Shown here: piece after piece, positions 17,450 to 55,036 of the stretch | Layout: every line of letters begins with the position of its first letter | Position numbering within the stretch: the stretch's first letter is position 1 | Assembly (NCBI RefSeq): GCF_036046055.1 | Contig: NZ_CP107939.1 | Location: forward strand, 5,828,001-5,892,000 | From: Nocardia sp. NBC_00403 | Lineage (GTDB): Bacteria; Actinomycetota; Actinomycetes; Mycobacteriales; Mycobacteriaceae | Reading direction: 5' to 3' | Length of the DNA stretch: 64,000 bases | Program-made: the position numbers and the translations under genes | The notes under the pieces: model-generated | What the model saw: only the letters and a program-made list of their open reading frames with translations | What the model was told of the DNA's origin: nothing | Database searches by the model: none

Positions 17450-17499
17450 TTCGCCAGTAATGCCGCGCTTTGATCGCTTGACTGATTTCTGGAGGCTTG

Positions 17500-33094: not shown

Positions 33095-33133
33095 ATGGTG
33101 GTTCACACGCGCAGCGATGCGCGGGAGGTGATG

Positions 33134-37600: not shown

Positions 37601-40600
37601 CGCGGTTGAATTCGGTGGGGTTGGCGAAAGTGCATGCCGAGTTGGGGCGTGCGCCGACCGAGGAGGAATTGCACCGGTTGAACAACGCGGTGACCGCGCA
37701 TTTCGACTACCCGGAGAAGGACACGTGGTTCAACTCCGGTGGCGATGATCCGCAGGTCGTGTTGATCAGCCGTACCACCCACGAGCCGGAAGGCAACGCC
37801 GGTTCCTCGGGGCGCGAAGCGGTCCACGTGAATCAGCCCGACCCGAAGCAGGCCGAAGGGCAGGCACCCGAAAGCGCCGAGCGGGGTGCGACGTTGAGCC
37901 GGGTCGAGAATGGCATCCATCAGGCTTTGGAGGCGATCGCGCAGAAATCGGACCCCAACATGCGAATCCGCGCCGAGCACGACAAGGCGCAGCAAATCAA
38001 CTCGAAGGAGTACTTCAGTCGGGAATACGGTCGATTCGACGTGGTATCAGGCGCGTCCGGGACGTTGACCTATGTTCCGGCCGAGCGGCTGGAACAGTTG
38101 GGCTGGGGTGAGGTGCTCGATGCCCCGGACTACTACGAGGACGTGCTGGTCCAACTCGACGATCACGAGCCTGCCGAGACCCCTGCGGCGAATCTGCAGC
38201 AGGTGTTCGACGCGGCGTTGGCCGACTACCGAGCCGGTCGCCCGGTCATCGTGGGCGCTGTCCTCAACAGTGAGGTCGAGCAACTAGTCGCGATGGCCGA
38301 GAAAGCCGGGATCCCGTGCAGGTATATGGACGCGCAGAAGCAGTGGCGACTCGGCGGCGCCCGTTTCCACGCCTACATGACCGAACTCGCCGGCAAACAC
38401 GGGGAGATGGTCATCGGCAACTTCGCTGTCGGTCGAGGCTTCGACAGACACGTGTCGCAAGACACCTGGGAACTTGGGGGCCTGGCATTGCACGGCACCG
38501 CCCGCCCCGACGACGTGGCGTTCGAGCAGTTGCGCCGACGCGCCGCCCGCGGCGGCGTCCCGGGATCCGCCCGCTTCGGCAGCACCACCGCACTCGCGCC
38601 CGACCCTCACGCCCATGTCTCCATCCACCACGTCCCCAGATCCGGCGAGCAGAACCACGCGGCCGGCAAAAAACCGTACGGCCTCAAACGACTCGACACG
38701 CCGACCCAACAGCTACCCAGCAAAGTGGCCGCTGGGTTACACCAAGTCCAACGGCAGGCCGGTGCGGACGCGCCGGCACCGAAATCCGCTGCCCTCCAGA
38801 CAATTCCGCATTCGCCGACTGACATCGACGTCCGCGATTCGACCCAGCCGCGGTGGACCGACGATCAGGCCGCCGCAGCGCGGCGGGACGCGGAACTGGC
38901 GACGGAGCGGCGGCAGGCAGCCGATCAGAATTCCGCGGCTATCGGACGTCATCTGGGTCCAGCCGCATTGATACCCACGCATATACCGCCCACGGCGCCA
39001 CAAACTCCCACCATCCCGACCCCAACCAGCGCACCAGCAGCAACGAACGCCCCCGCCGCCAACCACACCGCGACCAGTCCACAAACCCCGGACCATCAGG
39101 CACTCGACACTCCCGCCACACCCAGGAACACCGCTGCGCCGCAGGTCACGCCTGAGCAGGCGGCTACGCAGGCTCCGCTCACACCTGAGGTGTCGTCTGG
39201 ACACTCTGCGGAGGCCTACGTGGTGTCGGAGGTGTATGTCCCCGAAGCGCTGGACCCCGTGGGGGCCGCGTTATCGCGTCTTGATCATCGGGAATCCGAC
39301 GCCGACAATCACGAAACCCATGGGCTGGACGGCCCAGCGAATCCACTGGAGTCCCGCCGCGCACAATCCGAAAATCAAACCGTCCCAGACGACTTCGTCC
39401 GCCCTGCCGACACGCCCGGCACCTTACCTGACCAGGTATCCCCCGCTGCAGAACACGCTGGCGGTGCGTCAGGAACCGGCCGGTGGATGCCCGCGATCAC
39501 CGACCCTGTGCGGCCATCCGGCGACCTCACCCGGGCAACGTTGCTGCCTGTTGCCCTCGAGCGGGCCCTCGCGATGGTTGACAGCGATCCGGCCATCGCG
39601 GCGGGCGCGCGGCGTTTCGTGATGCAGAGTTTCGCGGAGTACCAGCACAGGTCTCTGGCCAGCGCCGAAGAGGTCCGCACGCGCGAGTTGATCAGCCAGG
39701 ATGGCATGACCCCCGTGGCCGCCGCGCTGCAGGCCCGACACAACCTCCAAAACGACAAGGTGCAAGAAAGTATTGACAACTCTGCGGCCGAAAATACCCG
39801 GAGGCTGGTCAACAATATATTGCGCGCCAGCAAGCAAAGACGATTGAGTCTGCCGGAGGCACTTGCCCATTTGCATCGCGTCGGCGCCACCACGAAGAAC
39901 TGGACCGATGCGCTGAAGTCACAACGTTCGGGCCAGGCCACCAGTCCTGCCAGCGACCGTGACGTCGTCGCTACGCCCCGCGAGATATCGACGGGATTAG
40001 TCGATACACCTCCTGCTACGAATAGCACACCCGCCACATCCTATTCCGAAGCCGAAGATCGCTCCACAAGCCACCCGGATGGCAGATACGACGGGTACGG
40101 GCGAGGCACCGCAGCGCGCCGCAACTATGACGACGATCCGGAGCCTGACCCGACCACGTCACGGGACGAGGCATCGGTGGCCGCGGCACAGCCCACCGAC
40201 GACAACCAGGTCGAGCTCGATACCCCGGCCACAGGCCAGGTCGACGCAGAATGCGCCGAATACGCGCTGCGCACAGCCGCGGACCTACGAACCCCTGACG
40301 GCACTCCGGTATTCGACGTCAAAGTACCCGACGCAGCCGCAATCGCCGAAGCAAAAAAGGCCGGCTACTACCCTCGTGCCGCTATCTCCTGGTACGCGGG
40401 CGGCCAACACAAAGAGTACCGCGGCGGATACCACGGCCTCGCGAACGCACTTACCCAATTCAGCATCGCCTCCAGCGACGGGATCGCCGGAATCCTCGTC
40501 AACATCGCACCAACGGGCGAAAAAAACGGCCACGTGTTTCTCGCCTACCACGACGGCACAACCATGTGGCTCCGCGCCCTCCACAAAAACATCCCCGACC

Positions 40601-43600
40601 AACCATTCAACCCAAACAACCCCCCATTCGACACCAAAACCGTCCACGGCATCACGCTCACCCGCCACGGCACCACCCAAACAATTGAATCCCGCCGCGA
40701 AGCATTCCAAGACCATGCGGTCCCAGAAGGTTTCGTCCGCCCTCCAGATACCTCCGGTGCCCTACCCAGGCGCGGGATGAGATTGCTGAGGCTATCAGCA
40801 AACAACGACGGGTCAGGCGTCGTACCTGGCAGGCGAGGGGGCAATCGATCGGACAGCAACACCGCGCGGCCGAACCCGCGATGGGCCAAACTACCTGGGG
40901 GCGGACATCTCTTTATCCCAGCCGTGGGCGGCGACTGGCCGGCGGCCGGGTCACCTGAGATGGGTCAGCCTACCAAGCGTGAAGTGTTGAGCCACGAGGA
41001 CGTCTGGCCAACGTATTTGGGCGATGTGTTGAATGCTTTCGGCACCAATACCGCACAGCGTGGCATGGTGGGCGCGACAAGCAACCCTGCGGAGGCAGGC
41101 ATCGCGCTGGCCCCCATTGGCCTCGCGCAGCTTGCTGCGGTACGTGCCGGAATTATGAAGCGGGATCCGCGAGAGGTTATGAGGTGGTCGACAGCAGGCG
41201 GCTCGGCCGCGTCTTTGGCTACCGCCGCTCTTCTTGCCGGCAATGGACCCCTGAGTATCGCGCTCCCGCTGGCAACGGGCGCAGAAGCCTTATTCGCCAC
41301 ATACTTTATCAATGCTGTTCAAAGAGATCTTGGGCATGCTTTAAGGCCCGGCGAGGAGTCCATTGTCGGTGGGTTGTTGGCGTTGCCCATTGGAGCCCTG
41401 GCCGGTGGGTTCCTCGGACCTTTTCTTGCAGGGCAGGCGGGTTATCTCCCACAGGCCTTCGATGCCGTCATGTGGATGGCAGCGTTCGGGGTGCTGCGGT
41501 TTTTGCCGAAAGACCATTCGTCGCACACGCCTGAAGCATCTCAAGGCTTCTCGCGTAGTATGCGTCAAGCCGTCCGCGAACTCGCCCGCACACTAGGCGC
41601 GGACAGCTTGCGTAGTATTCGTCAAGCCGTCCGCGAACTAGGCGCGGACACATCCTTCAGACGATTCATCATTCCTGTCTCTCTCAGCAATCTCGCCCTT
41701 GCCGATCTGATGTTCCACTTCTCGAACGTGGTACACGACAGTGGCAAGTCTCCGGCGATCCAAGGGGCCGCGACCGCCGCGTTCGCGGCGGGCGGAGTGG
41801 CGAGCATGCTTGCGCCTACGTGGATGAAAAACTGGATCGAGGAGCTCGAATTCCGGCATCTCGCTTCGGCTACCCTCGTAGGTTCTGCCGGGTTGACCGC
41901 AGTCGCTTCGGTGTGGGACAACCTCGGGGCAATGGCGGCAGCACTAGCGGGGTTGGGAGTATCGTCCACGATTATCACCGCCCGGATTTTCACCTATCTA
42001 AAGGAGAATTTCGGGGATTCGTTCGCTCTAGCAACCGGCGGGAAAGACGCCGCCATTGGCTTCGCGACGGCGCTGGGTACCTTTGTCGCCGGCTTTGTGG
42101 AGTTATCACACAATCACGCCCTAGAGTCCTTGGTCCCCATCGGCGCTGCTGGGATTGGCGCTGGCCTCTACATCGGTTCCGTTCTGCTGGAAAAAGCCAG
42201 CCAGCGGCAGGAAGAAGCACAACGGCGGCAGGACGCTGTCCTTTTCGAGAGCAGGCGACTCGACATGACGGGCAGCAAAGGCGAAAAGACACTGAGCTTT
42301 GTCTATGACGTCGGCAACGATGTCGCCGAATATCTCCTCACAGAAGTCAAAGAGATCGTCGACGGCCTCGCCTCCATGCCGCAAGGTCTCACACCTCGGG
42401 TACTGTTCGTCGACCCAGGTCTGAAACATGCTGCAGCGGTGGCCAATCCAGATTTCATCCGCGACCACGGCAGAGCACATGAGATCAAACGGAATCGCCT
42501 CCGTGATCTGATCGTCGCAGCACAGCGGGCGAATCGCACTGGAGCTGCGGCTCGCGATCAGTTGACCAGGGTTCTGCATAAGGCGGGGCTGCTGTTGGCT
42601 GATGGCGGTGTGAATGTGCTGTTCGGTATAGACCGCGACCAGGTCGAGGTGCTGTGCGAGGCACTTTCGGAGCTCTTCCCAGAAACACTCTGGGGGTATG
42701 CATCGCTAGTGACCGCAGAGCGTGGGCATGAGAGTCAGGACCACGCCGCAAGAATGGCTGGCGACGTGTTGCAAACCGGCCTCGGTCGTCTCGCCGTCCA
42801 CCGTCGTTTACAACATGCTGCACTCGAGGGGACAGCGGGGCGTCGAACGGCCGCGCGTGCTGCAAAGCGATGGGTCAAGTTGGTGGGAAGCGAACCTACG
42901 CAGGTAGAACCAGACCTGATCCCTGCGAGGACCACACAGTCCGTTGAAGCGTCGGCTGTCAGCCAGCAAGCTGTAGCGGAGTCGGATCCGCACGCGAGTG
43001 CCGAAGAACCACACCGCCAACCACACCCGTCCGCGTCGACAATGCTGGCAGACAGGCGGTTGACCTCCGATCATGTACGACGATACATTGAGAAATGGAC
43101 GCCGACTCTAGAGCAGGAATTCGCAAATCGGCAATTTGATGTAGAGAATGTTCTCGCACGCAGACCCAGACCGACACTGGAACCCGATAAGGTTAAGACA
43201 ACTGCCGACATCTTTACCCTTCTAAGAAGGGACGGTATTTACGAGATGCGCCGCAAGGTAGGTATCCTTGAAAGGTTTTTGTCGGGAGATGACCTCGAAA
43301 CATGGACGAGCGAAGAAAGCGAAATACTTGACAGAGCGCTCGGCAGCGTTGCTCACGGAACACTTCACGTAACTACCTGGGAAGATTACCGCGGAAACAA
43401 TCCAGATGCGATCGCCAGCCACGCACTCGAGGCGAAAGCATCGGCGCCGTGGATGTCGACTCGACCGGGATCGTTGCGTGAACGAATGGAGACGTTCGCT
43501 GCTGGTCAGTTATGTTTGGTCGACCTCAGCGGCCAGCTGTTGGGCATCCTCTCGACGAATCGCATCGACTGGGATGGCGACCCGCGCACCCTGGGCACTC

Positions 43601-46600
43601 GACGTGAGATCGCAGGCGAGGAGGGCACGTACCGCGATACATATAGGCCTACCGGAAACACTCTGTGCATTCTCGCAATGAATATCACGCCGAACGTCGC
43701 GCCACAGTTTGCGCAAGATCCATTGATAAATTCCTTGGTCGAATTTGCTGGCCGCGAGAATATCGAGCACATCGTTGGATCATTCCACCCCTCAGGCTAC
43801 GCCTTCAGCGTCAGAATGGCGCACCACCGGAATGAACATTTACCGACTTTGGCGGAGTACGTTGATGAACCCCAGAACGATGGCACGCTCGCACACCTTG
43901 CCGACCACTTCGGTATGCAGGTTCTCGAGGTTGAACACCGCTCCGTCCAGATACCGCTCAGCGCTGTCGAATTCGAGAGCTTCAGGCGACCGAATTGGAT
44001 CCGGCTCGATACCGTAGAGGGCCCCGCGTGGTGGTGTGGCGAGGCTGGATTCATCTATCAGCTCCCCGACGGAAATTATGAATACCGCGAGGACAATGTT
44101 TGGGGCCTGATTCCCGTACCGGGTGCGCACACCGAATCTGCGCAATCCAGCCCTGACGACGACCCGGAGTCCGACCCGACGACCACCTCACGAGACAGAG
44201 TCTCGGCGACCGGGGCACGACCCACCGAAGACAACCAGGTCGAGCGGGACATCCCGCCCCCGAGCCCAACCGACACGGCATGTCTCGCACATGCCCTGCG
44301 CACAGCCGACAAGCTACGGACCCCCGACGGCACACCCGTATTCGACGTCGAGATACCCAGCGAGGCAGCGATCACCGAGGCGGCGCAGGACGGCTTTCCG
44401 CGAGCCACAATCTCCTGGTTCGCAGGTGGTCAACACGACCCCTACGACGGGTACCACCATCTCGCGAGAAAACTCACCCGACTCAGCGCCGCATCCAGCG
44501 ACGGTGTCGCCGGCATCCTGGTGAACGCCAAGCCGACCGATGCCGAATTAGGCCATGTGTTCCTCGCCCACCACGACGGCACAACCATGTGGCTGCGCGC
44601 CATCGGCGAGAACATCCCCGACCAACCGCTCGACCCCGACAACCCCCCATTCGACACCGAAACCCTCCACGGCATCACACTGACCCGTCACGGCACCAAG
44701 ATACTGGACTCCCGCCGTGACGTATTCCAAAACCGCAAGGTCCCAAAAAAACGTTTCCGAAAGATCCCCAAAAATCGCTTCATCCGACCCCCCGACAACT
44801 CCGGCGCCCTACCGAACCACGAGACGGCCGCTTCCTTCGGGGCTGGTGAGGTCCCGGTACACGGCGGCGAGGACGAGACATCACCTGCACCGGACCACGA
44901 CGTACGCAATCGGCTGGTCGAGCTGGTCGAGGCCAACCTGGACCTGATCGGCGCCCATATCGAGTGGGATCACGATCGCAAGGTCTTCTGGTTTCGCAAT
45001 GACCAGGACGCAGTTGTCACAGTCGAACTGCAACCGCATTCAGACCCGGTCGGCCCGATCGCCGGGCGGCCTGACGATGGGAAGGTATTGGCCTATGGGC
45101 TGCCTGTTGCCACTTGGGCGTCGGATGTGGCGGCGATGCCCAAGATTGTGCGGAAGCTGGAAATCCTTCGGGCCCTGCAACAGCACAATGTTGAACTCCG
45201 CGAGGAGAAGCCACCGTTCCGCATCAATGGGGCCAGGGCCGCCATAACTGCGGAGCAGATGGGCGGGTTCGCCGAATTGCGGGCCCTCGTAGGGATGGCG
45301 CAACGAGATGGTGCAGTCCACGGGTCCGAACTGCGCAGTGTCTTGGACGAGGTGGCCGCGGAACTGCAGCTACGCCCAGGCGACTCGGACGTCGACACGC
45401 GGATGGCGCAGCTGGCACAGTGGGATCGACAGAGCCGCACAGCGGAGCGGCTCCGGGAATTGATGCCGGAGTGGGCATCCGGATCCGACGCACGATTCGA
45501 CCAGGCGTTCCTCGAATCGAAAGCCGCAGAACTCGAGCAGTTGATCAGAGAAAGCCGTGAATACCGCCCCGCCTCCCAGCTTCCCAGACGCGATGGCTGG
45601 GTCAAGGCACGCCCGCCGAGATCGTCTCTTGGCTTCCAGGAATTGCTCCGCTGCATCGAGACAGACCTCGCCCTCATCACCCGTGAACACCTACGGTGGG
45701 ACCCGGGCAGGGCGCGATTCACATTCGTCGACAAGCAGGGTGACCGCGTCGAGGTGGCAGTGTGGGCGGGAACCGCACGGGTCGGTGGAACCGCAGACAT
45801 CTTCTATAACCGCCACGATGACCGTTACGACATCGTCGTCGATTCCCGCGTCGACGAGGCACATGTGGCTCAGGCGGTCGCGGACGCGGTGGGCCGTATA
45901 CTGCATCGCGCCGACAACTCGATTCAACTCGACCTGATCGGCAGCCGGGCGGTCCAGATGACCGAGAGCCTCGCCGGTCTGTTCTCCCAAATGTCGGTCG
46001 TCGTCGGCCGGTTGGAGCGGGCCGTAGCGGCAGTACAGCCGGATCTGGTGCAGGTCATGATCGAAGAGCTGCGAAAGACTGTCGCGCATGCGGAGCAGGC
46101 ATTATCCGAGGAGGGGTCCGCGAGCTGGACGGCCTTGCTCGCCGCCCGTGAGCCTCTGCTGGCCGAACGTGCCACCCATTGGGTATCGACACTCCTGCCC
46201 GAGCACGCCACCGACGAATCGTCGGTCTTCGACGAACCTGAGATACATCTCCAAGTCTACAACCTAGGCGAGTTTCGTGCCGACGCGCGGACGGATTTGT
46301 CTAATAACGAACTGTTTCATCGCATCGAGGCCGATCTCGATCTCATTATCGATCAGCGAATAACCTGGAACAGGGGGAGATTCACGATTATCACCGCCAG
46401 TGGTGAGCATCACGTCATCTACGTGAAGGTGCATCCGGTCAAGTCCGGCGTTGTTGCCTCTGCCCATAGCACTGGACCCGGCACGTATTCGCTTCTGGTG
46501 TCGCCTCGCACGCATCCGGACGACGTATCGCGTGCGGTGAAAGGGGTGCTGGATGAGATCCTGCAGCAACACGAGCCATCACCCCGACCATGGTGGGCAC

Positions 46601-49600
46601 GCCGATTCGGCCAGCTGGGATTGGTGGTCAAGACATTCGTGGACGCAGAGGCCCGCGAGCTCAGCGACCGTGTGTCTACGTTGGGTCGAAAGCTCGTCGC
46701 CTTGGCCGCGGACTTGAGCATGCGGCCCACCGATCCCAGTTTCCCGCACCGGCTCGCGGCCTTGGCCGAGTACGACGACCAGCTCGCGACGGAATTCGAG
46801 GAGCTGATCTCGCGTATGCCCGGCGATCGTCTGCCGGTCAGCAATCGCCATCAGGCGCGACCGCAATCGGTGTTGAGTTTCGGTGCGAGCGCGGTTCGGC
46901 ACAACAGCACGGAGGTCAGCAAAGCCACCTCAGCACGCGTGATCGGCGAGGTGTGGGAGATCGCGCCGGTGGAGACCGCGCGCGCGATGGAGGAGGGAGG
47001 GGTTGAGGCACTGCACGCACCGCTGCACATCGGACTGCAACTGCGGGCCGCCGGTGTGACGATGCCGATCATCTCGCCCGGTTCGGCTATCGACGCCGAG
47101 GTCGCGGCGATCGCGATCAACGCCGACATCACCCTCACGGTGTCCTCGATCGACCAGCTACACACGGTTGCGCGCACCGCACGAACACTCGGCGCCACCG
47201 CCAAGATCGCCGTCGAATTCGACACCGGTAAACACGCGGGCGGCATTTCACCCAGCCAACGTCCAGAGCTGATCGAACGCCTGAACGAATACTCCGATGT
47301 GATCCCAGATGTCCATTGCTTCACCGAGCTGGCTCACGACGATGACCCGTGGCACCCGATGAACGACCGTCAAGTCCACCTTATGCACCAGCTTGCGCCC
47401 GAGTACAACACCTACCACATCGCAGGTGACGCGCTCGCAGTGCGACCGCAACTATGTCCCTCCCCCGCTGTCCGCTTGGGTGCACCCTTGTACGGGTATC
47501 TTCCCGGTGAGTCGCCGAACCTGGCATTGCAACCCTCAATCACACGCTGGGCGCGTGTCGCGTTCGTTAAAACGGTGCCCGCCGATGAAGGGCACGGCTA
47601 CCTGGGTGTGCCAGCGGGTCGCGAACGGCAGATCGCGTGGGTCGGGCTGGGGTACCCGGACGGTGTGCCCCATGATCTGGGCACGTGGGACCAGGGCCTG
47701 TGGGTGCTGATCAACGGCGTGCGATGTCCGATCGCCGGTCCGGTGTCGATGGACCAGCTCCCCGTCGAAGTACCTGCCGGGGTGCACATTTCAGAGGGCG
47801 ACATCGTCGTGCTCGCCGGACCCGGCATCGACGGTGAACCCACCGCGCAGCAGTGGTCTACCGCATTGGACGTGCCGTTGGACCAGTTCGCGAGCGCGCC
47901 ACCCGGCCGCACCCGGGTGGTGGTGCACGACGGGGTCGACCTCGTCATGGACCCCATGTACGCGCGCAGCAAGGTGAACCCATCCGTCGCCTCGGCATCG
48001 GCCACCGTCAGCACCGACGCGCTCACGAACAACCTGACTGTGGCGCGCCGACGATTCAACGAGGAGATCGACGAATACAACCGGATCCACGGGACCAAAC
48101 TGGCCGCACCTCGAATCATGCTGGTGGTGAAGGGAAATGCGTACGGTTTCGACGCTGAAATCCTTGCCCGCGCAGCGGAGGCGGCGGGCGTCGATGCAAT
48201 CGGAGGAGCGCAGATCGACGAGGTGGTCAAGCTACGCGCCTCGGGTATCGGTGTCCCGTTGCTGGCATGGCAGACCAACCCCCGCTCAGACTTCGAGTCA
48301 GCAATCAGATCGAATGTAGCGGTGGGGGTTTCGTCGGAGGCGGTACTGCGCGCGGTGGCCGCGGCCGCCGAGCGGGTCGGGGAGCCTGCGACGGTGCATC
48401 TCGCTGTCAACACCGGCTTGAACCGTGAAGGATTGTCCGCGAACGAACTCGCTCGACTGATTCCCATACTCCTCGACGAGGTCGACAGCGGCCGGATCGT
48501 GCTCGAGGGTCTGATGTCTCACGCCGATCTCGACGAAACAAAATCGGACAGGCACTACCAGCGCTTCATGGAGGCAGTCGACACCCTGGCAGAGGCCGGT
48601 CTGCACCCAAGCATGTTGCACCTATGGGCCAGCATGGCGACAGATATCCCACCGGACCGACGCATGACGCTGGTCCGGTTGGGAACGCTGCTCTACGGGC
48701 GATGGTGGGACTTCGGACCGCACCCGGAACTGCAAGATGTACTGGAGATCCGCACTCGGGTCGCTGACACGATCCACGTCCGCGCTGGCGACGGTGCGGG
48801 GCTGCACCACCGCTGGACCGCCGAGTGTGACACCATCCTCGCGCGGATCCCGATCGGCTCCGCCGACCTTCCACTGCCCAACCCGAACATGCCGTTCGAT
48901 GTGGCGATCAATGGCAGATGGTACCCGAAGGTCGGCCCCGCCGAACGACACCACATCCTGGTCGACCTGGGCCCCGACTCAGAGATCGGTGCGAACACCG
49001 AGGTCGTCGTGCTCGGTGCGGCAGAGCGGGGTGAACCCACGGTAGCCGACTGGGTAGAGGCCGGATTCGCCCAAGGACCAGCCCTCGGCCCTGGTGTTCA
49101 CGTTGAGATCGTGTCGAGCCCTCCCGCCCAAGCCTCCATCTCCGAGCCCACTCCGGGGCCGCCACCCTCGACACCCACAACAGATCCCCAGGCCGAGCGT
49201 GCCTTCTGGACCATCGATTTCGACCATTACGGCGATCTCGTTCAGGACCCGGCCGACCACGACAATTTCGATGACCGACCAGGAGAAGCCGGCGAGGAGC
49301 CGGGTGATGTCCCCGAGCCCGTCGACCAACTGCTCGACAGGTCAGTTCCGCGTGGTGACACACCGGAGTGGGTGCGCCCAGATGAGTGGAATCCGGGGCG
49401 AGCGGCCGACGTCGCTGGCAGGTCACCGTGGGCTGCGCGCGAAGTGGGCACGGACTTCGTGGCTGATTCGACGAGGCGTCCACCACACGCAGGTCCGGCT
49501 GTACCCGCCCCGCCCCGCTTCCCTGACGAACACAACGAGGAACCCGATCGGCACCATCGTGAACCTCCAGGCGACCAACGTGGCCCGAAAAGCACCGCGC

Positions 49601-52600
49601 CCGAACCTCAATCCAATCCTGGACCAAGATCCCGTGCCACCTTCGACGATGGCGCGGAGACAAGAGCCGAACTGCAACTGGCAGCACCCCAGCCGAACGC
49701 CGAACGTGGTGTAGCCCAGGCGTCGGGGACAATCGACCTCACCCCTGAGAGGTCGGATTCGCCTGGTACCGATGACGTGCCTGGAACGACCGCGCAGTCC
49801 GAGCAACGATCGGGTGCCGATGCACAGCATGAGACATCCCGCGCTGCGGCTCCACGGAAGTCTGCCATGCCGACACCGTGGACCGCGGCGAACAGTGCTG
49901 GACGGGCCATAGCACCGCCCGGCCCGACCGCGCATGTCATGCATACACCCTGGACCGAGCGAGATCTCATGGAGCAGGGTGGTGCCGCGTTCACGCCCTG
50001 GCCGACTGCCGGTCGGGTCGCTCCAGCGGGCCCCGCTCCTGAATGGGCCGACGTACACGACCAACTGTCACGGACCCACGTACCGCCCGGAAATGCTGCT
50101 GCCGACGGCCGCGGTGCAGAGCTCGCCGCTCGATCGAATCCTGATGCGGCTCCACACGATCGCAGTCCGACAGGGTTACCTGCGTTGGCTGACCATCGCG
50201 ATTCATCCGAGGTCGACAGTGCTGGCAACGCCAGTGAGGAGACACACACGAGCACTTCTCCAGCGATCACTGTCGATGGTCCGACAGACCCCGATCACAC
50301 GGGCGCCGAGTGGGCGGCGGTCGCAGACATGTTGGACCGCTGGTTTGTATCGTCCGAGGAGAAGGCTCTGCCCGGCTTGGTCACCGATGTCCGGTTCTTG
50401 AACGACCAGATACGGCGGCCCGCGACAATCGATCCGCTGACCTGGGTGTTCGGTTTGGCGACAGTGGTAGCGGACCGCCTCATGACCTTGGCGACCGGGA
50501 TCCCACAGCGGTCACAAACTGGTCTTCCAGGGGGTGTGCGGGACGAGGCAGAATCGATACTCGCCCAGCCGTCGCCCGAGGCGAAGGAGCGCGTGTGGGT
50601 GGTCTTGGAGAGGTTGCGCCAGGAGGCGCTGTTCCCAGCCCCTCCCGCGGCGGGCGACGACGAGCCGGAGATTGCGGCGACATCGACGCCAGTCGACTAC
50701 GACTGGGATTGGCCGTTCGAGGTTGACGCGGCGTTCGACGGGCTCGGTTACAAGCCAAAGAAATACATGGAATTGCGGGAGTATGCACAAGATCTCGAAC
50801 AACGTTTCGGCACTGTCCATGTAGAGGACGTCGGAGTTACCGACGGCGATCTACCGATTTCCATTGTCACGATCCCGGGACCGCCCGGTTCGCCCACGAA
50901 GCTTGTGTACAACCTCGATCATGTCGACGAATACTTCTCCTCCGGGACCGCTGAAGCTGCGATGCACCTCCTGGCGACGAACCCGGCAGCCCGCACGGAA
51001 ACCGTGGTCTTCTATCTGGCTGTCGATCCTGATGCCGCCGTCCGGTCGGAGAACTGGGACACATCCCGCTGGCCGCTCCGGACCGGTGGCCACTTCCAGG
51101 ACAGTTCCCGCCAGATCCCTGACGAGCAAATAGAACACCGATTCGGCACGGGATGGTCGGCAGCAGTGATGCGTACGTTTGTCGAGGTGCTGCATAGGAT
51201 CAAGCCAGATATCATAGTTGCACTTCACAACAGCTTTTTCGAACCACCCTATGTCGGGGTCACCGAGCCCGTGCGTGGGCTACCCGCCATCGTGGCCAGG
51301 GCTTCCGCGGAGGCGGGGTCACCCGCACGAGGACCCGACCACGAGTGGCCGAACGCCGTTCGACTTGGACCAGGCGTCGTGTTGCTGCCCGACGACTCAT
51401 ACTGGGCAAAAATCGCCGACGATGTGTACGAATACACCGGAAAGCGACCGATTGTGGCGTTTGCAGAAGGACAAATATGGCATCGGCGTTTCACTCCACG
51501 CCATACTGTCGGCGAAGCGCGTGATTTCGCCAAACAGCAACTGAGAGGAATGAAGAAGACCGTCACACGCCTGGCAGAAACCTCCCCATCACATCTTTCA
51601 GCGGCAGGAAAGAACTTCTTCGACGCAACAGGTAAAGAACTCGTCAAAGAATGGCGGCTTCGGGCTGAGAAGAATTCAGACGAGGTTGCCGCGGATCATA
51701 TCTGGGCTTACCTGTACTTGCTCCGGATGCTCGGCCAATTGCTGCACCACGCCAGGAATCTGCAACGCAATGGAATGAATGAGCCCTGGCTTGACAAGGT
51801 CGTTGCCCAGCTGCGTCGGCGATTTGCCATCTTGGACCGACAACTGGTGCATACCTATGGGATCGAACCTGCCGAGTTCCAGCGTTCGGTGGAGGCACAA
51901 CTCAAGATCACGCTAGGTGTGGGTCGAGAAATCGTACCCATGACCAGTACATTCGGAGGCCCAGCCGACGTCGAGACCACCACCGATGTCGACGAAAGCC
52001 AGACCCCCACCGACAACAACGCAGACAGGACAGTCACAGTTGCCACTCCGCACGATACTTCCAACACTCCAGCGCAATCACGCACTTCGCAGACTGGGGA
52101 CTCGCCAGAGGGAGATTCGAATTCGGGCAGACGCCGGTTCACGGCGGACGCTGGGAATCCGCTCGCCGGAGCGGTCGGACACGCAAAACTGGGCACGACA
52201 CGATGGGCGATTCCAGGGCAGGCAGATCCTGCGGCGTTCCGTGCGGCGCGGTCGCCATGGACCGGCCATTCGTCGACCGACGACATTGAGTTCGGCGGGG
52301 AGATGCGGCCGCCACACGTCAGCCCGCACGTGCCCGAGGTCAACCGCTTCCCCAGGCGAAGGAATCACGCGCCAATAGAGAGCGTCGACACCGAACAAGA
52401 CCTCGTGCAGTCGACGGACGCTGACACCGGGCGGATGACGCCGCCACCTGACAACAACCCGTTCGAAGGCGGCAGTGGCCCCAAGCGCGGCGCTCAGCCA
52501 AAGCCCAAGGCCGCCTCCAACGACATTCCGGACCCCAACCCGATCACGAATGTACTGAACAATCAGATCACAGTGAATCGATTGAATATCGGCGGCGATC

Positions 52601-53769
52601 TTGGTGGCCAGGAGGAGCATGACAAACAATTAGCTGCCGCAGCCCACGAAAACGCCGACGGGACACCGCCGCCCGTTAGCAAGCCCGAAATCCATTCAAT
52701 TGCAGGCGATAACGACACCGACCCAACACCAGGCGGAGACCGGGTTTCACAGATTTCGCTCGATCGATATGTCGGAGATTTCGCGGTCTTCCTCCCCAAC
52801 GGCCGCAAATTGCAATGCCGTGTCGAGGGACCAGAGGGCGGGCAACCAGTGATCCAGTTTCATGGCAGGCCGAGTAGCCGTCTGGATACCGCTCCGCCGG
52901 AGTTGCTCGATCGACTGAACATACGACTCGTAACTTTCGATCGGCCTGGCTGGGGTGGATCCGACTTCCAAGAGGGCATAACAATCGCCGATAGCGCTGC
53001 GCACGTCGAAGCGATCATGGACCATCTCGGATACCAACAATTCGCTGTCGTCGGTCGATCTGGCGGAACCGCCTACGCGGCGGCCGCAGCAGCTCTTCTA
53101 CCCGACCGTGTCACGAAAGTCGCACTTCTCGTTCCGGTTGCACCTCCGTCTCTGATGCAAGAGGGATACCTCGAGAACTTGCATCCAAATCAGCGCCTCG
53201 CCCGAACCTCGCCTGACGTGACTGCCGAGCGATACGCGAGGTACAAGGAAACCCGCAACCCATTGGAGATCATCGGAACTCCGCGAGATGAACTCGTCAG
53301 TATGGACCGAGAGATTATCGACAAATATTGGGAAGACTTGGTCCTCAGCTTCGACGAAGCTTTCACACAGGGTCCCGCAGCTTGGAAAGCTGAAATCGAA
53401 CAAATGAATGGTGTTGATACCTGGGGCTTCGAATATAGCGATATCAAATGCCCAGTTCTCATCTGGGCTGCGAGTAGAGATGAGAACACGCCTGCTCTGT
53501 ACGCGCAAAGGGTCGCCGAACAGTTGTCGCCGGGGCAGTGTCGGCAATACCTCGCTGTGGACGAAAGGCTGGGCCACTTCGGAGCTTTCGAAATCAAGCC
53601 TGGGACATACGCTTGGCTAACTGGACGAGAAGACTTGATACGCTTTCCCACCGAGCGGCCAGCCGGTCAGGCGCCGGGGACACCTATCCGCACCAGTCTC
53701 GAACAATGGAGCGCCCTCGCGGAGAACGATGACGCCCTCCCACGCGCGGCCACCGATTCGCCCCAATGA
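34696..53769 (+). CDS. Giant ESX-linked multidomain protein (6357 codons), probable polymorphic-toxin-like effector
   Basis: One uninterrupted 19-kb frame. Order (residues from 34696): WXG-like helices and Gly-rich segment 1-295; coiled coil 372-705; SecA-like ATPase 739-1335; Pro/Thr linker; helical domain 1595-1745; papain-like module 1 about 1836-2025; MFS-like membrane block 2096-2500; unassigned domain 2524-2732; GNAT-like 2889-3095; papain-like module 2 about 3180-3370; three repeat modules 3399-4045; two alanine-racemase copies 4054-4812; linker; M14-like peptidase 5199-5755; linker; alpha/beta hydrolase 6022-6332. No signal peptide is seen. The start is uncertain: the TTG at 34696 overlaps the WXG gene's stop, and a GTG at 34714 is the alternative; neither has a clear RBS. 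The toxin reading is inference from architecture; each domain is supported by its own motifs. Confidence 0.8.
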   Translation: MIGLCLVINDDDIVELVDSIPTPLQLALLAGRFPEQKPGALSEVGTIMSKLGAHVERFSADTQQQWALTQQALQGVSQQQATQFLDHVTAASNSIAEATPKIGDATHKLASESLASQLAMIMMTLRAAWTVMAGLGNPIADAAAIEETLPRIIEEKAAFDAAAEATIREISGLVRPLGSFVGHAAVVSFRIGAEQTAFTLAADVLSGETLDPKTLGSAFLQGSGSALVSHLATGAAVHFFPALQNSALGRLGVGFGSGATMVGAGAAFTGHWDWSGLLGGALNGALLGYAGGRKSPAVEAPETAAVRNVGDQLSDAERASSVANMLAQANKPPREITTAGVTGNAAADVAALQGKWLPTKRIPEVSTGPFTPEAVQQARERMDLAKADRDAAKVEAQARIEEAQSRVEDRAARDPRVRRADERVASAEAELAGRQARQESAEAVLNAFRRDRSTRSENVAHEERALERRVRSASFWKSVGEFTVGRALADREAVLAEVVAEHRADVESRAVGAVRALQERQRVFAQASAEHDKLVREEAQRRFEELQEQARAAIDGAAENRGGVGGTEGVEKPRTQVAEGDSTRLARLQARLEAARSRVERAGSLGEQISAEMGELRAKVELRAAERALRRSAVAEGEFAQALARAERLRETGRPEAIAEADARVEAATRAWERAAERAERLADAVAAHVELLAVDIASDVEVRARVLWEGYLSRLGVEHLPGEAPPPTWWQQRPWPPEPDADLPQWDSMSHQDLEVRLKGQFGEDEQIGAFLEVLRREGGQVIRPNQLMMALHMSEGGFVNLRAGGGKTLPFDEASAYMALKHGSVVRVSSHEYLADRDKEGFVKKFGKYGFKAVRLNPDGKYAELDGPTVFFGTDGELVHSDQRGNIVPARALLADEACEVLGLTHSNGKMYAIVDGDDHNLPGPEADMVIWARDFLDGSLAKGVLTEADCRPLNAIPAKADEHGGARLNSVGLAKVHAELGRAPTEEELHRLNNAVTAHFDYPEKDTWFNSGGDDPQVVLISRTTHEPEGNAGSSGREAVHVNQPDPKQAEGQAPESAERGATLSRVENGIHQALEAIAQKSDPNMRIRAEHDKAQQINSKEYFSREYGRFDVVSGASGTLTYVPAERLEQLGWGEVLDAPDYYEDVLVQLDDHEPAETPAANLQQVFDAALADYRAGRPVIVGAVLNSEVEQLVAMAEKAGIPCRYMDAQKQWRLGGARFHAYMTELAGKHGEMVIGNFAVGRGFDRHVSQDTWELGGLALHGTARPDDVAFEQLRRRAARGGVPGSARFGSTTALAPDPHAHVSIHHVPRSGEQNHAAGKKPYGLKRLDTPTQQLPSKVAAGLHQVQRQAGADAPAPKSAALQTIPHSPTDIDVRDSTQPRWTDDQAAAARRDAELATERRQAADQNSAAIGRHLGPAALIPTHIPPTAPQTPTIPTPTSAPAATNAPAANHTATSPQTPDHQALDTPATPRNTAAPQVTPEQAATQAPLTPEVSSGHSAEAYVVSEVYVPEALDPVGAALSRLDHRESDADNHETHGLDGPANPLESRRAQSENQTVPDDFVRPADTPGTLPDQVSPAAEHAGGASGTGRWMPAITDPVRPSGDLTRATLLPVALERALAMVDSDPAIAAGARRFVMQSFAEYQHRSLASAEEVRTRELISQDGMTPVAAALQARHNLQNDKVQESIDNSAAENTRRLVNNILRASKQRRLSLPEALAHLHRVGATTKNWTDALKSQRSGQATSPASDRDVVATPREISTGLVDTPPATNSTPATSYSEAEDRSTSHPDGRYDGYGRGTAARRNYDDDPEPDPTTSRDEASVAAAQPTDDNQVELDTPATGQVDAECAEYALRTAADLRTPDGTPVFDVKVPDAAAIAEAKKAGYYPRAAISWYAGGQHKEYRGGYHGLANALTQFSIASSDGIAGILVNIAPTGEKNGHVFLAYHDGTTMWLRALHKNIPDQPFNPNNPPFDTKTVHGITLTRHGTTQTIESRREAFQDHAVPEGFVRPPDTSGALPRRGMRLLRLSANNDGSGVVPGRRGGNRSDSNTARPNPRWAKLPGGGHLFIPAVGGDWPAAGSPEMGQPTKREVLSHEDVWPTYLGDVLNAFGTNTAQRGMVGATSNPAEAGIALAPIGLAQLAAVRAGIMKRDPREVMRWSTAGGSAASLATAALLAGNGPLSIALPLATGAEALFATYFINAVQRDLGHALRPGEESIVGGLLALPIGALAGGFLGPFLAGQAGYLPQAFDAVMWMAAFGVLRFLPKDHSSHTPEASQGFSRSMRQAVRELARTLGADSLRSIRQAVRELGADTSFRRFIIPVSLSNLALADLMFHFSNVVHDSGKSPAIQGAATAAFAAGGVASMLAPTWMKNWIEELEFRHLASATLVGSAGLTAVASVWDNLGAMAAALAGLGVSSTIITARIFTYLKENFGDSFALATGGKDAAIGFATALGTFVAGFVELSHNHALESLVPIGAAGIGAGLYIGSVLLEKASQRQEEAQRRQDAVLFESRRLDMTGSKGEKTLSFVYDVGNDVAEYLLTEVKEIVDGLASMPQGLTPRVLFVDPGLKHAAAVANPDFIRDHGRAHEIKRNRLRDLIVAAQRANRTGAAARDQLTRVLHKAGLLLADGGVNVLFGIDRDQVEVLCEALSELFPETLWGYASLVTAERGHESQDHAARMAGDVLQTGLGRLAVHRRLQHAALEGTAGRRTAARAAKRWVKLVGSEPTQVEPDLIPARTTQSVEASAVSQQAVAESDPHASAEEPHRQPHPSASTMLADRRLTSDHVRRYIEKWTPTLEQEFANRQFDVENVLARRPRPTLEPDKVKTTADIFTLLRRDGIYEMRRKVGILERFLSGDDLETWTSEESEILDRALGSVAHGTLHVTTWEDYRGNNPDAIASHALEAKASAPWMSTRPGSLRERMETFAAGQLCLVDLSGQLLGILSTNRIDWDGDPRTLGTRREIAGEEGTYRDTYRPTGNTLCILAMNITPNVAPQFAQDPLINSLVEFAGRENIEHIVGSFHPSGYAFSVRMAHHRNEHLPTLAEYVDEPQNDGTLAHLADHFGMQVLEVEHRSVQIPLSAVEFESFRRPNWIRLDTVEGPAWWCGEAGFIYQLPDGNYEYREDNVWGLIPVPGAHTESAQSSPDDDPESDPTTTSRDRVSATGARPTEDNQVERDIPPPSPTDTACLAHALRTADKLRTPDGTPVFDVEIPSEAAITEAAQDGFPRATISWFAGGQHDPYDGYHHLARKLTRLSAASSDGVAGILVNAKPTDAELGHVFLAHHDGTTMWLRAIGENIPDQPLDPDNPPFDTETLHGITLTRHGTKILDSRRDVFQNRKVPKKRFRKIPKNRFIRPPDNSGALPNHETAASFGAGEVPVHGGEDETSPAPDHDVRNRLVELVEANLDLIGAHIEWDHDRKVFWFRNDQDAVVTVELQPHSDPVGPIAGRPDDGKVLAYGLPVATWASDVAAMPKIVRKLEILRALQQHNVELREEKPPFRINGARAAITAEQMGGFAELRALVGMAQRDGAVHGSELRSVLDEVAAELQLRPGDSDVDTRMAQLAQWDRQSRTAERLRELMPEWASGSDARFDQAFLESKAAELEQLIRESREYRPASQLPRRDGWVKARPPRSSLGFQELLRCIETDLALITREHLRWDPGRARFTFVDKQGDRVEVAVWAGTARVGGTADIFYNRHDDRYDIVVDSRVDEAHVAQAVADAVGRILHRADNSIQLDLIGSRAVQMTESLAGLFSQMSVVVGRLERAVAAVQPDLVQVMIEELRKTVAHAEQALSEEGSASWTALLAAREPLLAERATHWVSTLLPEHATDESSVFDEPEIHLQVYNLGEFRADARTDLSNNELFHRIEADLDLIIDQRITWNRGRFTIITASGEHHVIYVKVHPVKSGVVASAHSTGPGTYSLLVSPRTHPDDVSRAVKGVLDEILQQHEPSPRPWWARRFGQLGLVVKTFVDAEARELSDRVSTLGRKLVALAADLSMRPTDPSFPHRLAALAEYDDQLATEFEELISRMPGDRLPVSNRHQARPQSVLSFGASAVRHNSTEVSKATSARVIGEVWEIAPVETARAMEEGGVEALHAPLHIGLQLRAAGVTMPIISPGSAIDAEVAAIAINADITLTVSSIDQLHTVARTARTLGATAKIAVEFDTGKHAGGISPSQRPELIERLNEYSDVIPDVHCFTELAHDDDPWHPMNDRQVHLMHQLAPEYNTYHIAGDALAVRPQLCPSPAVRLGAPLYGYLPGESPNLALQPSITRWARVAFVKTVPADEGHGYLGVPAGRERQIAWVGLGYPDGVPHDLGTWDQGLWVLINGVRCPIAGPVSMDQLPVEVPAGVHISEGDIVVLAGPGIDGEPTAQQWSTALDVPLDQFASAPPGRTRVVVHDGVDLVMDPMYARSKVNPSVASASATVSTDALTNNLTVARRRFNEEIDEYNRIHGTKLAAPRIMLVVKGNAYGFDAEILARAAEAAGVDAIGGAQIDEVVKLRASGIGVPLLAWQTNPRSDFESAIRSNVAVGVSSEAVLRAVAAAAERVGEPATVHLAVNTGLNREGLSANELARLIPILLDEVDSGRIVLEGLMSHADLDETKSDRHYQRFMEAVDTLAEAGLHPSMLHLWASMATDIPPDRRMTLVRLGTLLYGRWWDFGPHPELQDVLEIRTRVADTIHVRAGDGAGLHHRWTAECDTILARIPIGSADLPLPNPNMPFDVAINGRWYPKVGPAERHHILVDLGPDSEIGANTEVVVLGAAERGEPTVADWVEAGFAQGPALGPGVHVEIVSSPPAQASISEPTPGPPPSTPTTDPQAERAFWTIDFDHYGDLVQDPADHDNFDDRPGEAGEEPGDVPEPVDQLLDRSVPRGDTPEWVRPDEWNPGRAADVAGRSPWAAREVGTDFVADSTRRPPHAGPAVPAPPRFPDEHNEEPDRHHREPPGDQRGPKSTAPEPQSNPGPRSRATFDDGAETRAELQLAAPQPNAERGVAQASGTIDLTPERSDSPGTDDVPGTTAQSEQRSGADAQHETSRAAAPRKSAMPTPWTAANSAGRAIAPPGPTAHVMHTPWTERDLMEQGGAAFTPWPTAGRVAPAGPAPEWADVHDQLSRTHVPPGNAAADGRGAELAARSNPDAAPHDRSPTGLPALADHRDSSEVDSAGNASEETHTSTSPAITVDGPTDPDHTGAEWAAVADMLDRWFVSSEEKALPGLVTDVRFLNDQIRRPATIDPLTWVFGLATVVADRLMTLATGIPQRSQTGLPGGVRDEAESILAQPSPEAKERVWVVLERLRQEALFPAPPAAGDDEPEIAATSTPVDYDWDWPFEVDAAFDGLGYKPKKYMELREYAQDLEQRFGTVHVEDVGVTDGDLPISIVTIPGPPGSPTKLVYNLDHVDEYFSSGTAEAAMHLLATNPAARTETVVFYLAVDPDAAVRSENWDTSRWPLRTGGHFQDSSRQIPDEQIEHRFGTGWSAAVMRTFVEVLHRIKPDIIVALHNSFFEPPYVGVTEPVRGLPAIVARASAEAGSPARGPDHEWPNAVRLGPGVVLLPDDSYWAKIADDVYEYTGKRPIVAFAEGQIWHRRFTPRHTVGEARDFAKQQLRGMKKTVTRLAETSPSHLSAAGKNFFDATGKELVKEWRLRAEKNSDEVAADHIWAYLYLLRMLGQLLHHARNLQRNGMNEPWLDKVVAQLRRRFAILDRQLVHTYGIEPAEFQRSVEAQLKITLGVGREIVPMTSTFGGPADVETTTDVDESQTPTDNNADRTVTVATPHDTSNTPAQSRTSQTGDSPEGDSNSGRRRFTADAGNPLAGAVGHAKLGTTRWAIPGQADPAAFRAARSPWTGHSSTDDIEFGGEMRPPHVSPHVPEVNRFPRRRNHAPIESVDTEQDLVQSTDADTGRMTPPPDNNPFEGGSGPKRGAQPKPKAASNDIPDPNPITNVLNNQITVNRLNIGGDLGGQEEHDKQLAAAAHENADGTPPPVSKPEIHSIAGDNDTDPTPGGDRVSQISLDRYVGDFAVFLPNGRKLQCRVEGPEGGQPVIQFHGRPSSRLDTAPPELLDRLNIRLVTFDRPGWGGSDFQEGITIADSAAHVEAIMDHLGYQQFAVVGRSGGTAYAAAAAALLPDRVTKVALLVPVAPPSLMQEGYLENLHPNQRLARTSPDVTAERYARYKETRNPLEIIGTPRDELVSMDREIIDKYWEDLVLSFDEAFTQGPAAWKAEIEQMNGVDTWGFEYSDIKCPVLIWAASRDENTPALYAQRVAEQLSPGQCRQYLAVDERLGHFGAFEIKPGTYAWLTGREDLIRFPTERPAGQAPGTPIRTSLEQWSALAENDDALPRAATDSPQ
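35810..36810 (+). other. Coiled-coil region of the giant protein
   Basis: About 330 residues very rich in Ala, Glu and Arg with heptad-like spacing (LARLQARLEAARSRVERAG; RAERLRETGRPEAIAEADAR). It would form a long rod between the helical N-terminus and the SecA-like motor. Codon use is extremely GC-biased here. Confidence 0.8.
36910..38700 (+). other. SecA-like DEAD ATPase domain inside the giant protein
   Basis: Key SecA positions appear in order. A Walker A variant AGGGKT (805-810, SecA has TGEGKT) is followed by SSHEYLADRD (SecA TVNDYLARRD), ADEACEVL with D898-E899 (SecA VDEVDSIL) and VSGASGTL (SecA GMTGTA). The second motor half has RPVIVGAVLNSEVEQL, AVGRGFDRH, GGLALHGTARP and RRRAARGGVPGSARF (SecA GRxTD, GGLxVIGTERH, QLRGRSGRQGDPG). 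The preprotein-binding and C-terminal SecB/zinc parts are not seen. ATP hydrolysis seems possible but the motifs are diverged. Confidence 0.7.
40190..40790 (+). other. Papain-like module, copy 1 (giant protein)
   Basis: Candidate catalytic Cys1853 in AECAEYALRTAADL and His1946 in NGHVFLAYHDGTTMWL, about 93 residues apart. It is followed by the linker VPEGFVRPPDTSGALP. It resembles papain-fold deamidase/protease toxins in the position of Cys and His; the third triad residue is not identifiable. Copy 2 at 44200-44820 is about 60% identical by eye. Confidence 0.5.
40981..42200 (+). other. MFS-like membrane block (giant protein)
   Basis: Some ten hydrophobic stretches, such as LATAALLAGNGPLSIALPLA, VGGLLALPIGALAGGFLGPF, MAAALAGLGVSSTIITARIF and GFATALGTFVAGFVEL. 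The second half (FRRFIIPVSLSNLALADLMF) follows the half-transporter pattern of MFS exporters. It also contains a near-perfect 13-residue tandem repeat (RQAVRELA... at about 41555 and 41620). Confidence 0.6.
43360..43980 (+). other. GNAT acetyltransferase-like region (giant protein)
   Basis: The order LCLVDLSGQLLGILSTNRI, TGNTLCILAMNITPNVAPQF, EHIVGSFHPSGYAFSVRM and VQIPLSAVEFESF resembles a GNAT-fold acyltransferase with its beta4-beta5 acceptor and CoA side. The usual Q/RxxGxG/A loop is not clear, so activity is doubtful. Confidence 0.4.
44200..44820 (+). other. Papain-like module, copy 2 (giant protein)
   Basis: Cys3196 in DTACLAHALRTADKL and His3287 in LGHVFLAHHDGTTMWL. It shares LRTPDGTPVFDV, ISWFAGGQH, HGITLTRHGT and SRRDVFQ with copy 1, and a degenerate linker ending FIRPPDNSGALP. 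Confidence 0.5.
44890..46830 (+). repeat. Three tandem copies of an unnamed ~200-residue module (giant protein)
   Basis: Each begins with a motif like ELVEANLDLIGAHIEWDHDR, LRCIETDLALITREHLRWDP or FHRIEADLDLIIDQRITWNR. A beta-rich part follows, then a helical part ending near ELMPEW, STLLPEH or ELISRMP. Copies start near 44896, 45640 and 46300. They are about 25-35% alike by eye. No known family is recognised. Confidence 0.65.
46855..47930 (+). other. Alanine racemase copy 1, PLP lysine lost (giant protein)
   Basis: Fold motifs: VRLGAPLYGYLPG, VGLGYPDGVP (Tyr4320, equal to Tyr265 of B. stearothermophilus Alr) and GPVSMDQLPVEV (Met4352). The N-terminal VVKANAYG motif is replaced by VIGEVWEIAP, so no PLP Schiff base can form in this copy. 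Confidence 0.75.
47950..49130 (+). other. Alanine racemase copy 2, PLP lysine kept, tyrosine loop lost (giant protein)
   Basis: IMLVVKGNAYGFDAEILARA carries the PLP Lys4479. VNTGLNREGL, MSHADLD and LVRLGTLLYG are also kept. The C-terminal tyrosine loop reads IPIGSADLPL (Ser4722 in place of Tyr), and the SMDQ loop is replaced by PAERHHILVD. Confidence 0.75.
50290..51960 (+). other. M14-like zinc peptidase domain (giant protein)
   Basis: A zinc-site pattern of carboxypeptidases is visible: His5409-x-x-Glu5412 in NLDHVDEYFSSG, then VVFYLAVDPDAAVRSENW (like NPDGxxxxxR), then His5511 in DIIVALHNSFFEPPYVGV. The C-terminal Glu region is less clear. Cell-wall peptidases are common in M14, but the substrate is unknown. 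Confidence 0.55.
52760..53690 (+). other. C-terminal alpha/beta hydrolase domain (giant protein)
   Basis: Complete triad: Ser6122 in VVGRSGGTAYAAAAA, Asp6262 in IWAASRDENTPALYA, His6294 in RLGHFGAFE. The oxyanion loop is VIQFHGRPSSR. This is the last domain, the usual position of the toxic tip in polymorphic toxins. Confidence 0.8.
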
Positions 53770-54421: not shown

Positions 54422-55036
54422 ATGTTCGATGATGACCTCGCTCAAAGTCTGGTGGACCGGGCTACCACGTTCCAGCGGGCGCTCGTCGCCACTTCGTGCT
54501 TGAACCGAGCGGTCGCCCTCACGCACGACGAGTGGACGGACCGTGAGGTACCCGGATTCCGGCAACTCATCGATGACTCAACGGAATTCTGTCGGGCCCG
54601 AGCGGTCGGCGGTCCGCCCCGGACTGATCCGGACCTCCTGAACGCACGATTCCGCGAGATTCTCGGCCCGGACGATTGGCCGTGCGACGAACCCGACGGT
54701 CTCGCGGCCTGGCTCATCGACGTGGTCTCGATCGCGGATTATGTGATACGGACGTGGAACGAGCCCGACCTGAGCGATTCTCGGTGCTTCAATGTCCTTG
54801 TCGCCTCCTATTCCCTGGCGGGAATGTTGAACGACGATGCTGTTCAAACCGGCGCCCGGGAGCTCGGCGAGCTCGAGGTCACGAGGCAGATCGCCGACCT
54901 ACGAGCGGTGACCAGCCTGCACAATCCGATCGGTGTCGACCAATTGGACTGGCTGTTGGCGGAGTCAGATGCGCTCGCCGAAGCGTATCGGCGAAGATTC
55001 CAGGATATTGTCGCTGAGTATGGATCGGAGCGATGA
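54422..55036 (+). CDS. Helical protein of unknown function, candidate immunity protein
   Basis: 204 residues, acidic. The ATG at 54422 has AAGGAG 9 bp upstream. The predicted helices are amphipathic (FDDDLAQSLVDRATTFQRAL; LAAWLIDVVSIADYVIRTWN; VDQLDWLLAESDALAEAYRR). There is no signal peptide or membrane segment, so it is cytoplasmic. It lies at the end of the run that starts with the WXG gene. An immunity role against one of the enzymatic domains is possible but untested, and the family is not recognised. Confidence 0.7.
   Translation: MFDDDLAQSLVDRATTFQRALVATSCLNRAVALTHDEWTDREVPGFRQLIDDSTEFCRARAVGGPPRTDPDLLNARFREILGPDDWPCDEPDGLAAWLIDVVSIADYVIRTWNEPDLSDSRCFNVLVASYSLAGMLNDDAVQTGARELGELEVTRQIADLRAVTSLHNPIGVDQLDWLLAESDALAEAYRRRFQDIVAEYGSER

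Follow-up and report, generated by a model that had tools for sequence, protein, structure and literature searches.

Two alanine-racemase folds with opposite defects in a giant Nocardia protein: a probable fused pseudo-dimer with one composite active site

Why should a single protein carry two alanine-racemase folds with opposite defects? The question is raised by a 64,000-bp stretch of Nocardia sp. NBC_00403 (NZ_CP107939.1, positions 5,828,001 to 5,892,000; here, the window), part of an 8.7-Mb genome assembled in one contig, in which a giant open frame on the forward strand (34696..53769; 6357 codons from a TTG, with no internal stop) encodes two complete alanine racemase (Alr) folds in tandem at residues ∼4054 to 4810. 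We conclude that this segment is probably a covalently fused Alr pseudo-dimer with a single two-base active site, carried as an effector payload. All of the parts given below by coordinates within the giant frame lie on the forward strand.

Each active site of an Alr takes the barrel with the pyridoxal 5'-phosphate (PLP) lysine from one monomer and a tyrosine from the other, and these two residues are the two bases of the reaction, as described in a passage of PMC3146814. Both copies in the tandem are recognizable in full. The Pfam domains Ala_racemase_N and Ala_racemase_C (PF01168 and PF00842) each match in two stretches, with 202.8 and 102.2 bits against cut-offs of 24.1 and 25, and the best NCBIfam match of the pair is TIGR00492 alr (243 bits over two stretches; cut-off, 168). 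Among the rows listed, structure matches to Alr were obtained for both copies, and for copy 2 again in a further comparison. The start at residue 4054 and the end proposed in the initial annotation match the two folds, and all of the residues and motifs that it named (VIGEVWEIAP, Tyr4320, Met4352, Lys4479, Ser4722, and VRLGTLLYG) stand at the numbers it gave. The same genome also encodes an ordinary alr at 2333251, with all of the canonical residues compared.

Residue numbers are those of B. stearothermophilus Alr, and 29 Nocardia Alrs served as the reference for the residue counts. For equivalent residues, roles follow passages of PMC3146814; Met312 and Asn203 are given their customary roles in Alr. 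Primes mark residues contributed by the partner domain. Seven distinct tandems are available, the window's and six others that are 37 to 84% identical to it, and in these the composite site, formed by the copy 2 barrel and the copy 1 C-terminal domain, is well kept. The copy 2 barrel (47980..48741, border approximate) is the source of the Lys39, Tyr43, Arg136, His166, Ser204, and Arg219 equivalents; K39, Y43, R136, H166, H200, and R219 are each present in all seven, and S204 in six. A PLP lysine within a VVKANAYG-type motif is found in every copy 2 and in no copy 1. The copy 1 C-terminal domain (47527..47943, border approximate), the source of the tyrosine and the Met-Asp pair, has Y265' and D313' in 7/7 and M312' in 6/7. 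In the window these are Lys4479 (AAG, 48130..48132), the composite site's PLP lysine; Tyr4320 (TAC, 47653..47655), its second catalytic base; and Met4352 (ATG)-Asp4353 (47749..47754).

The mirror site has fared differently. The copy 1 barrel (46858..47526, border approximate) lacks K39, Y43, K129, R136, H166, and N203 in every tandem, keeping S204 in one, H200 in five, and R219 in six, and the copy 2 C-terminal domain (48742..49125, border approximate) has Arg at the Met312 position in all seven (Arg4751 in the window, 48946..48948), D313 in two, and Y265 in five. Counted over 12 active-site positions in the seven tandems, 68 of 84 cells are retained in the composite site and 19 of 84 in the mirror site. 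By these residues the tandem is a derived variant rather than an ordinary Alr, as the two equivalent sites of an Alr dimer are not found.

This pattern agrees with most of what the initial annotation had proposed for the window alone. Its statements that copy 1 has lost the PLP lysine while keeping the tyrosine and methionine, and that copy 2 lacks the methionine loop, extend to the family at the counts just given. Ser4722 (TCC, 48859..48861) does replace the mirror-site tyrosine in the window, as it said, although this is not a family trait, as five of the seven have Tyr and P0006 has Phe. Its central proposal, that selection has kept one composite site, is well supported by conservation: when homologues were checked, neither Lys4479 nor Tyr4320 was lost in any of the seven, while the mirror site has lost its lysine in all seven and its tyrosine in two. 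The same loss pattern recurs in seven distinct proteins, and the tandem is therefore not a product of chance.

Because the lysine barrel and the tyrosine stand on opposite subunits in Alr dimers, one composite site would survive in such a protein, and its mirror looks dead. We propose that the two folds pack asymmetrically on the plan of a normal Alr dimer, each in the place of one subunit. The copy 2 barrel would carry PLP on Lys4479, the copy 1 C-terminal domain would contribute Tyr4320 and the Met-Asp loop facing that barrel, and Lys4479 and Tyr4320 would together make a single amino-acid racemase site with two bases. The mirror site, built from the copy 1 barrel and the copy 2 C-terminal domain, would be left without PLP binding as a structural interface, because its lysine is replaced by Trp or Ile/Val, its Arg136 and His166 equivalents are lost, and its methionine is changed to Arg. 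Which residue replaces the lysine depends on the register: the MAFFT alignment places Ile/Val opposite the lost lysine and Trp opposite Tyr43, and alignment by the strands predicted for copy 1 (48-52) and copy 2 (440-444) sets Trp4087 against Lys4479, the Trp then being followed by a short deletion. Neither register has a lysine at the copy 1 PLP position, and the Trp is present in 7/7. We note that mirror-site residues 4174 and 4211 (47215-47217 and 47326-47328) are Glu in six of seven tandems each and that, like Arg4751, present in all seven, they occupy catalytic positions; these two acids and Arg4751 may block the dead mirror site by pairing in a salt bridge.

The loss of many canonical residues, in a giant frame that also has fragmentary SecA-like pieces, could also be what a decaying gene or an assembly artefact looks like. 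This explanation is close to negligible, as the 6357 codons are free of stops with gene-like guanine-cytosine content by codon position, the tandem is known from seven distinct records of which one is on a complete plasmid, and the losses are patterned rather than random. A second explanation is that copy 2 works alone, as a copy 2/copy 2 homodimer between two giant chains, with copy 1 as dead ballast, and five of the seven copies 2 do have a tyrosine of their own. However, copy 2 lacks the methionine in all seven tandems and Asp313 in five, the copies 2 of the window and of P0006 have no tyrosine and thus no second base, and the constancy of the copy 1 tyrosine would be unexpected in ballast; we regard this arrangement as very improbable.

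Several observations weigh against a composite racemase site. K129 and N203, the latter the Asn that stands ahead of the conserved Ser, are absent from the copy 2 barrel in all seven tandems, with Ala, Ser, or Phe at the position of the carbamylated lysine (Glu or Gln in copy 1) and Ala or Pro instead of Asn203; the entryway acid loop is shortened in copy 2 and kept in copy 1; and Met312' is replaced by Gln in L032. The wider claim of the initial annotation, that the retained parts are exactly those needed, is thus too strong. The support from the contrast of 68 to 19, which 65 of 100,000 random sets of Alr-invariant columns with the same number per domain reach, is tempered by the kinship of the seven rows, which that figure ignores. 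The two structure models of the tandem have mean predicted local distance difference test (pLDDT) values of 65.6 and 73.3 and predicted template modeling scores of 0.56 and 0.67, and pLDDT falls below 50 in the linker (model residues 343-394), in the Tyr4320 loop, and in the loop just past Lys4479. In the matches to 4bf5_A and 4beq, one chain is aligned across both copies (model residues 19-762 and 20-763), and model 1 may have mixed domains of the two copies.

The division of labor is also less clear for domains than for residues. Barrel profile scores are higher for copy 2 in all six of the tandems used for domain profiles and for the invariant-column scan (the residue table has seven), and the C-terminal-domain scores are higher for copy 2 in four of the six with the window tied (within 1 bit), which also counts against the composite-site reading. 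Among columns invariant in 29 ordinary Alrs, copy 2 alone keeps 21 in the barrel and copy 1 alone 11 (unweighted), the latter a further adverse count; the counts for the C-terminal domain are six for copy 1 alone and four for copy 2 alone. Complementary decay of whole C-terminal domains was considered and rejected, as the profile scores do not favor copy 1, and taken with the invariant columns these scores indicate that the two copies complement each other chiefly in their catalytic residues, and less so as whole domains. When 22 ordinary Alrs were added to the alignment, they fell on copy 2 only, as judged by invariant columns.

The same missing residues suit a third explanation, a pseudo-enzyme that holds PLP without racemizing and serves a giant structural protein as a scaffold or as a sensor of PLP or amino acids, since the carbamylated-lysine and Asn203 equivalents are lost throughout and the entryway is changed. 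We consider it unlikely, though less so than a copy 2 homodimer: both bases and the substrate-carboxylate arginine are kept in all seven composite sites, whereas the mirror site has lost its lysine and arginine in all seven. The carbamylated lysine is also not indispensable to an Alr, as that of B. anthracis is active with Asn and chloride in its place (PMC2743695). That enzyme is a homodimer with two sites, and the tandems have Ala, Ser, or Phe at this position.

A fourth explanation is that the composite site catalyzes another reaction, be it serine or broad-spectrum racemization, decarboxylation, or another fold-type III activity. The substrate-side residues do differ (K129, N203, and the entryway loop), and broad-spectrum, serine, and lysine racemases, which have the same fold, are among the structure matches listed; against this, the best NCBIfam match is TIGR00492 alr, well over its cut-off, and the tyrosine base of racemases is invariant. 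This alternative is possible but somewhat doubtful, and its racemization part overlaps with the fused pseudo-dimer that we favor. The single site of that pseudo-dimer probably racemizes alanine or an amino acid like it; its specificity may have shifted, since it lacks the carbamylated lysine and part of the entryway.

How old is the fusion, and how widespread? In trees with the 29 ordinary Alrs (L002 and L004-L031, the single-Alr loci collected from 29 of 150 Nocardia genomes), built first with six tandems and then with seven, all copies 1 form one clade and all copies 2 another (100/100 each). The same joins appear in both copies: the window with P0003 and then L032, P0004 with P0005, and P0006 with L084. 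The branches are long, the P0006-L084 join was flagged by the tree tool, and not every join is well supported; the topology is consistent with one old fusion behind all of the tandems. On the tree, the composite-site tyrosine is constant in all seven, and the mirror-site tyrosine is replaced in two separate lines.

The tandem is rare but not unique. Identities to the window's copy are 84% for P0003, 62% for L032, 53% for P0004, 51% for P0005, 45% for P0006, and 37% for L084; P0006, L033, and the copy in genome G112 are one sequence over the domain and are counted once. A search among giant proteins scored 875 candidates and found the tandem in five, one of them the window's own protein, and a scan for the copy 1 pattern in the genomes of 84,980 species gave two loci, of which L032 was new. 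Besides the window's own tandem, a scan of 150 genomes of the genus found one (in G112), and a scan of 401 genomes of the family at an expectation (E) value of ≤1e-60 found one, at the contig positions of L032. A scan of 394 genomes of the class at E ≤ 1e-50 found no tandem beyond the window's, and its matches in six other genomes are frames of 393 to 596 amino acids (aa), the size of a single Alr. The seventh tandem, L084, is on a plasmid of Nocardia sp. NBC_00511, among the matches listed for 8 of 18 matching plasmid records. A protein search limited to about 435 to 1384 aa gave four proteins, all Mur-ligase/Alr fusions by their Pfam domains, and an Alr scan of viral contigs gave no match. 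Source databases label the relatives "alanine racemase," with P0006 named after another domain.

What is the tandem doing in so large a protein? It does not stand alone, as three similar stretches just upstream form an accessory region (44914..46785) that is conserved with the pair. Stretches 1 and 3 are alike at E = 2.8e-06 and 2 and 3 at 4.9e-08, with 1 and 2 not significant alone; a self-BLAST of the whole giant showed no internal repeats although these stretches exist, and its output was not used. The block of accessory region and pair is common to the window and P0003-P0005 (residues 3394-4817), P0006 (3407-4801), L032, in which the accessory region is 39% identical, and L084, and the other domains differ. 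Weak relatives of the accessory region occur in other large frames in 21 of 148 Nocardia genomes, including the window's and G112.

The plasmid of NBC_00511 shows how the block is exchanged. Its tandem protein (2382 aa; L084 7717-14865, NZ_CP107850.1) consists of an N-terminus 62% identical to window residues 7-331, a linker, the accessory region, and the racemase pair. A second protein of the same plasmid (1755 aa; L092 24329-29596) has its first 426 residues identical to those of the tandem protein, after which the two show no similarity at E = 1e-3, and Pfam finds no Alr in its remainder. In genome G013, a giant with an 84% identical N-terminus runs for 6672 codons up to the contig end without a tandem match that far, and a search of the whole genome gave an ordinary Alr only; the contig end cuts this frame and puts its full payload set beyond view, which limits the case for payload exchange. 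With a shared N-terminus and differing remainders, these proteins have the constant head and variable payload of polymorphic effectors; behind the constant N-terminal domain (34714..35688), the pair and its accessory region make up one of several payloads that can be exchanged.

A WXG100-like partner gene of 534 aa (33095..34699, forward strand), whose stop overlaps the start region of the giant frame, precedes the giant; it scores 25.6 bits in one search and 29.8 in another against PF06013 (cut-off, 27.3). A 73% identical partner gene precedes the giant of G013, and C-terminal parts of it (66% and 65% identical) precede both plasmid genes. EccC, a component of type VII machinery, has four matches over the cut-off in this genome, which shows that such machinery is present, and none in 14 control genomes. 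The giant protein is most likely delivered as an effector, and it is plausible from the polymorphic-effector context that it is secreted and acts in a target cell; the initial annotation had assumed such a role, in which racemizing alanine or serine might hit the peptidoglycan supply of the target. The idea that the other long WXG100 genes of the genome also have giant partners was rejected, as the longest stop-to-stop frame in the eight 16-kb stretches covered is 1609 codons.

Within the giant frame, a GTG at 34714 (frame residue 7) is the probable start, since the annotated start of the plasmid homologue aligns from residue 7; the public record of the protein, P0002, has a later start and 5781 aa. 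Pfam places SecA-like fragments in the N-terminal part, including a SecA DEAD-like fragment at residues 774-855 (37015..37260), and an alpha/beta hydrolase at the C-terminus. Two stretches inside the protein (39883-40545 and 43996-44845) are 61% identical over 145 residues, and one of them weakly matches a papain-fold glutamine deamidase toxin family (E = 0.094, under the cut-off). That match came from a Pfam search of six pieces, which gave sub-cut-off matches only; a PDB sequence search with two other pieces of the giant gave no significant match, and PADLOC gave none on five pieces.

As to the neighbors, the next gene (54422-55036) has no Pfam, NCBIfam, or PADLOC family match at the limits used. 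SMI1/KNR4 (SUKH-1) proteins are known as immunity proteins of polymorphic toxins, and a protein with this domain is encoded at 21641-23236. A ThiF-family gene followed by an M50/site-2-protease gene lies at 17497-19904, and a pair of this type (65% and 69% identical) lies near the plasmid tandem gene of NBC_00511 (L084 20385-22747). A functional link between this pair and the tandem was rejected, as 9 of 148 Nocardia genomes have ThiF relatives (E ≤ 1e-40), and G013 and G112 are not among the nine.

Comparison with known systems places the tandem between several of them. Like Alr, a PLP enzyme of fold type III, it has the fold in both copies and the lysine barrel and the Tyr/Met domain on opposite interface partners; unlike Alr, it has two copies per chain with opposite defects, a single site for each pair where Alr has two symmetric ones, no carbamylated lysine, and a place inside a giant multidomain protein. 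The closest parallel is in ornithine decarboxylase, of the same fold class, in which mixing a mutant that lacks the lysine with another that lacks the partner cysteine restores 29% activity, one interface site being made from two complementary defective subunits, as stated in a passage of PMC3289617; those heterodimers are engineered and unlinked, whereas the tandem is natural, fused, and conserved. The giant family resembles type VII-linked polymorphic toxins of the WXG100/LXG type in its constant N-terminus, variable payload, and WXG100-like partner gene, and differs from them in being far larger, with several enzyme-like domains in series and with no immunity gene identified. An Alr-related (RIFT-related) domain is among the predicted domains of Legionella effectors, where a passage of PMC11696984 calls it new for effectors and of unknown role; it is one predicted domain family there, and that passage mentions no tandem or composite site. 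Among the matches listed in open-licence PubMed Central (titles and abstract starts), no paper was found that describes an Alr as fused or pseudo-heterodimeric, or as the payload of a polymorphic or type VII effector.

Tentatively, the tandem may be an obligately asymmetric natural Alr in which one interface site died after fusion while selection held the other. It would then have been taken into a family of giant effectors linked to type VII, as an exchangeable payload that racemizes the free amino acids of a recipient as a weapon or a signal. If the composite site is real, the tandem would parallel in nature the classic experiments that mix mutants of fold-type III enzymes, with complementary loss leaving one shared site. 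It would also offer a clean system for studying the reason that dimeric enzymes have two sites and the way in which fusion lets one of them decay. A polymorphic effector family linked to type VII would then also count an amino-acid racemase among its payloads.
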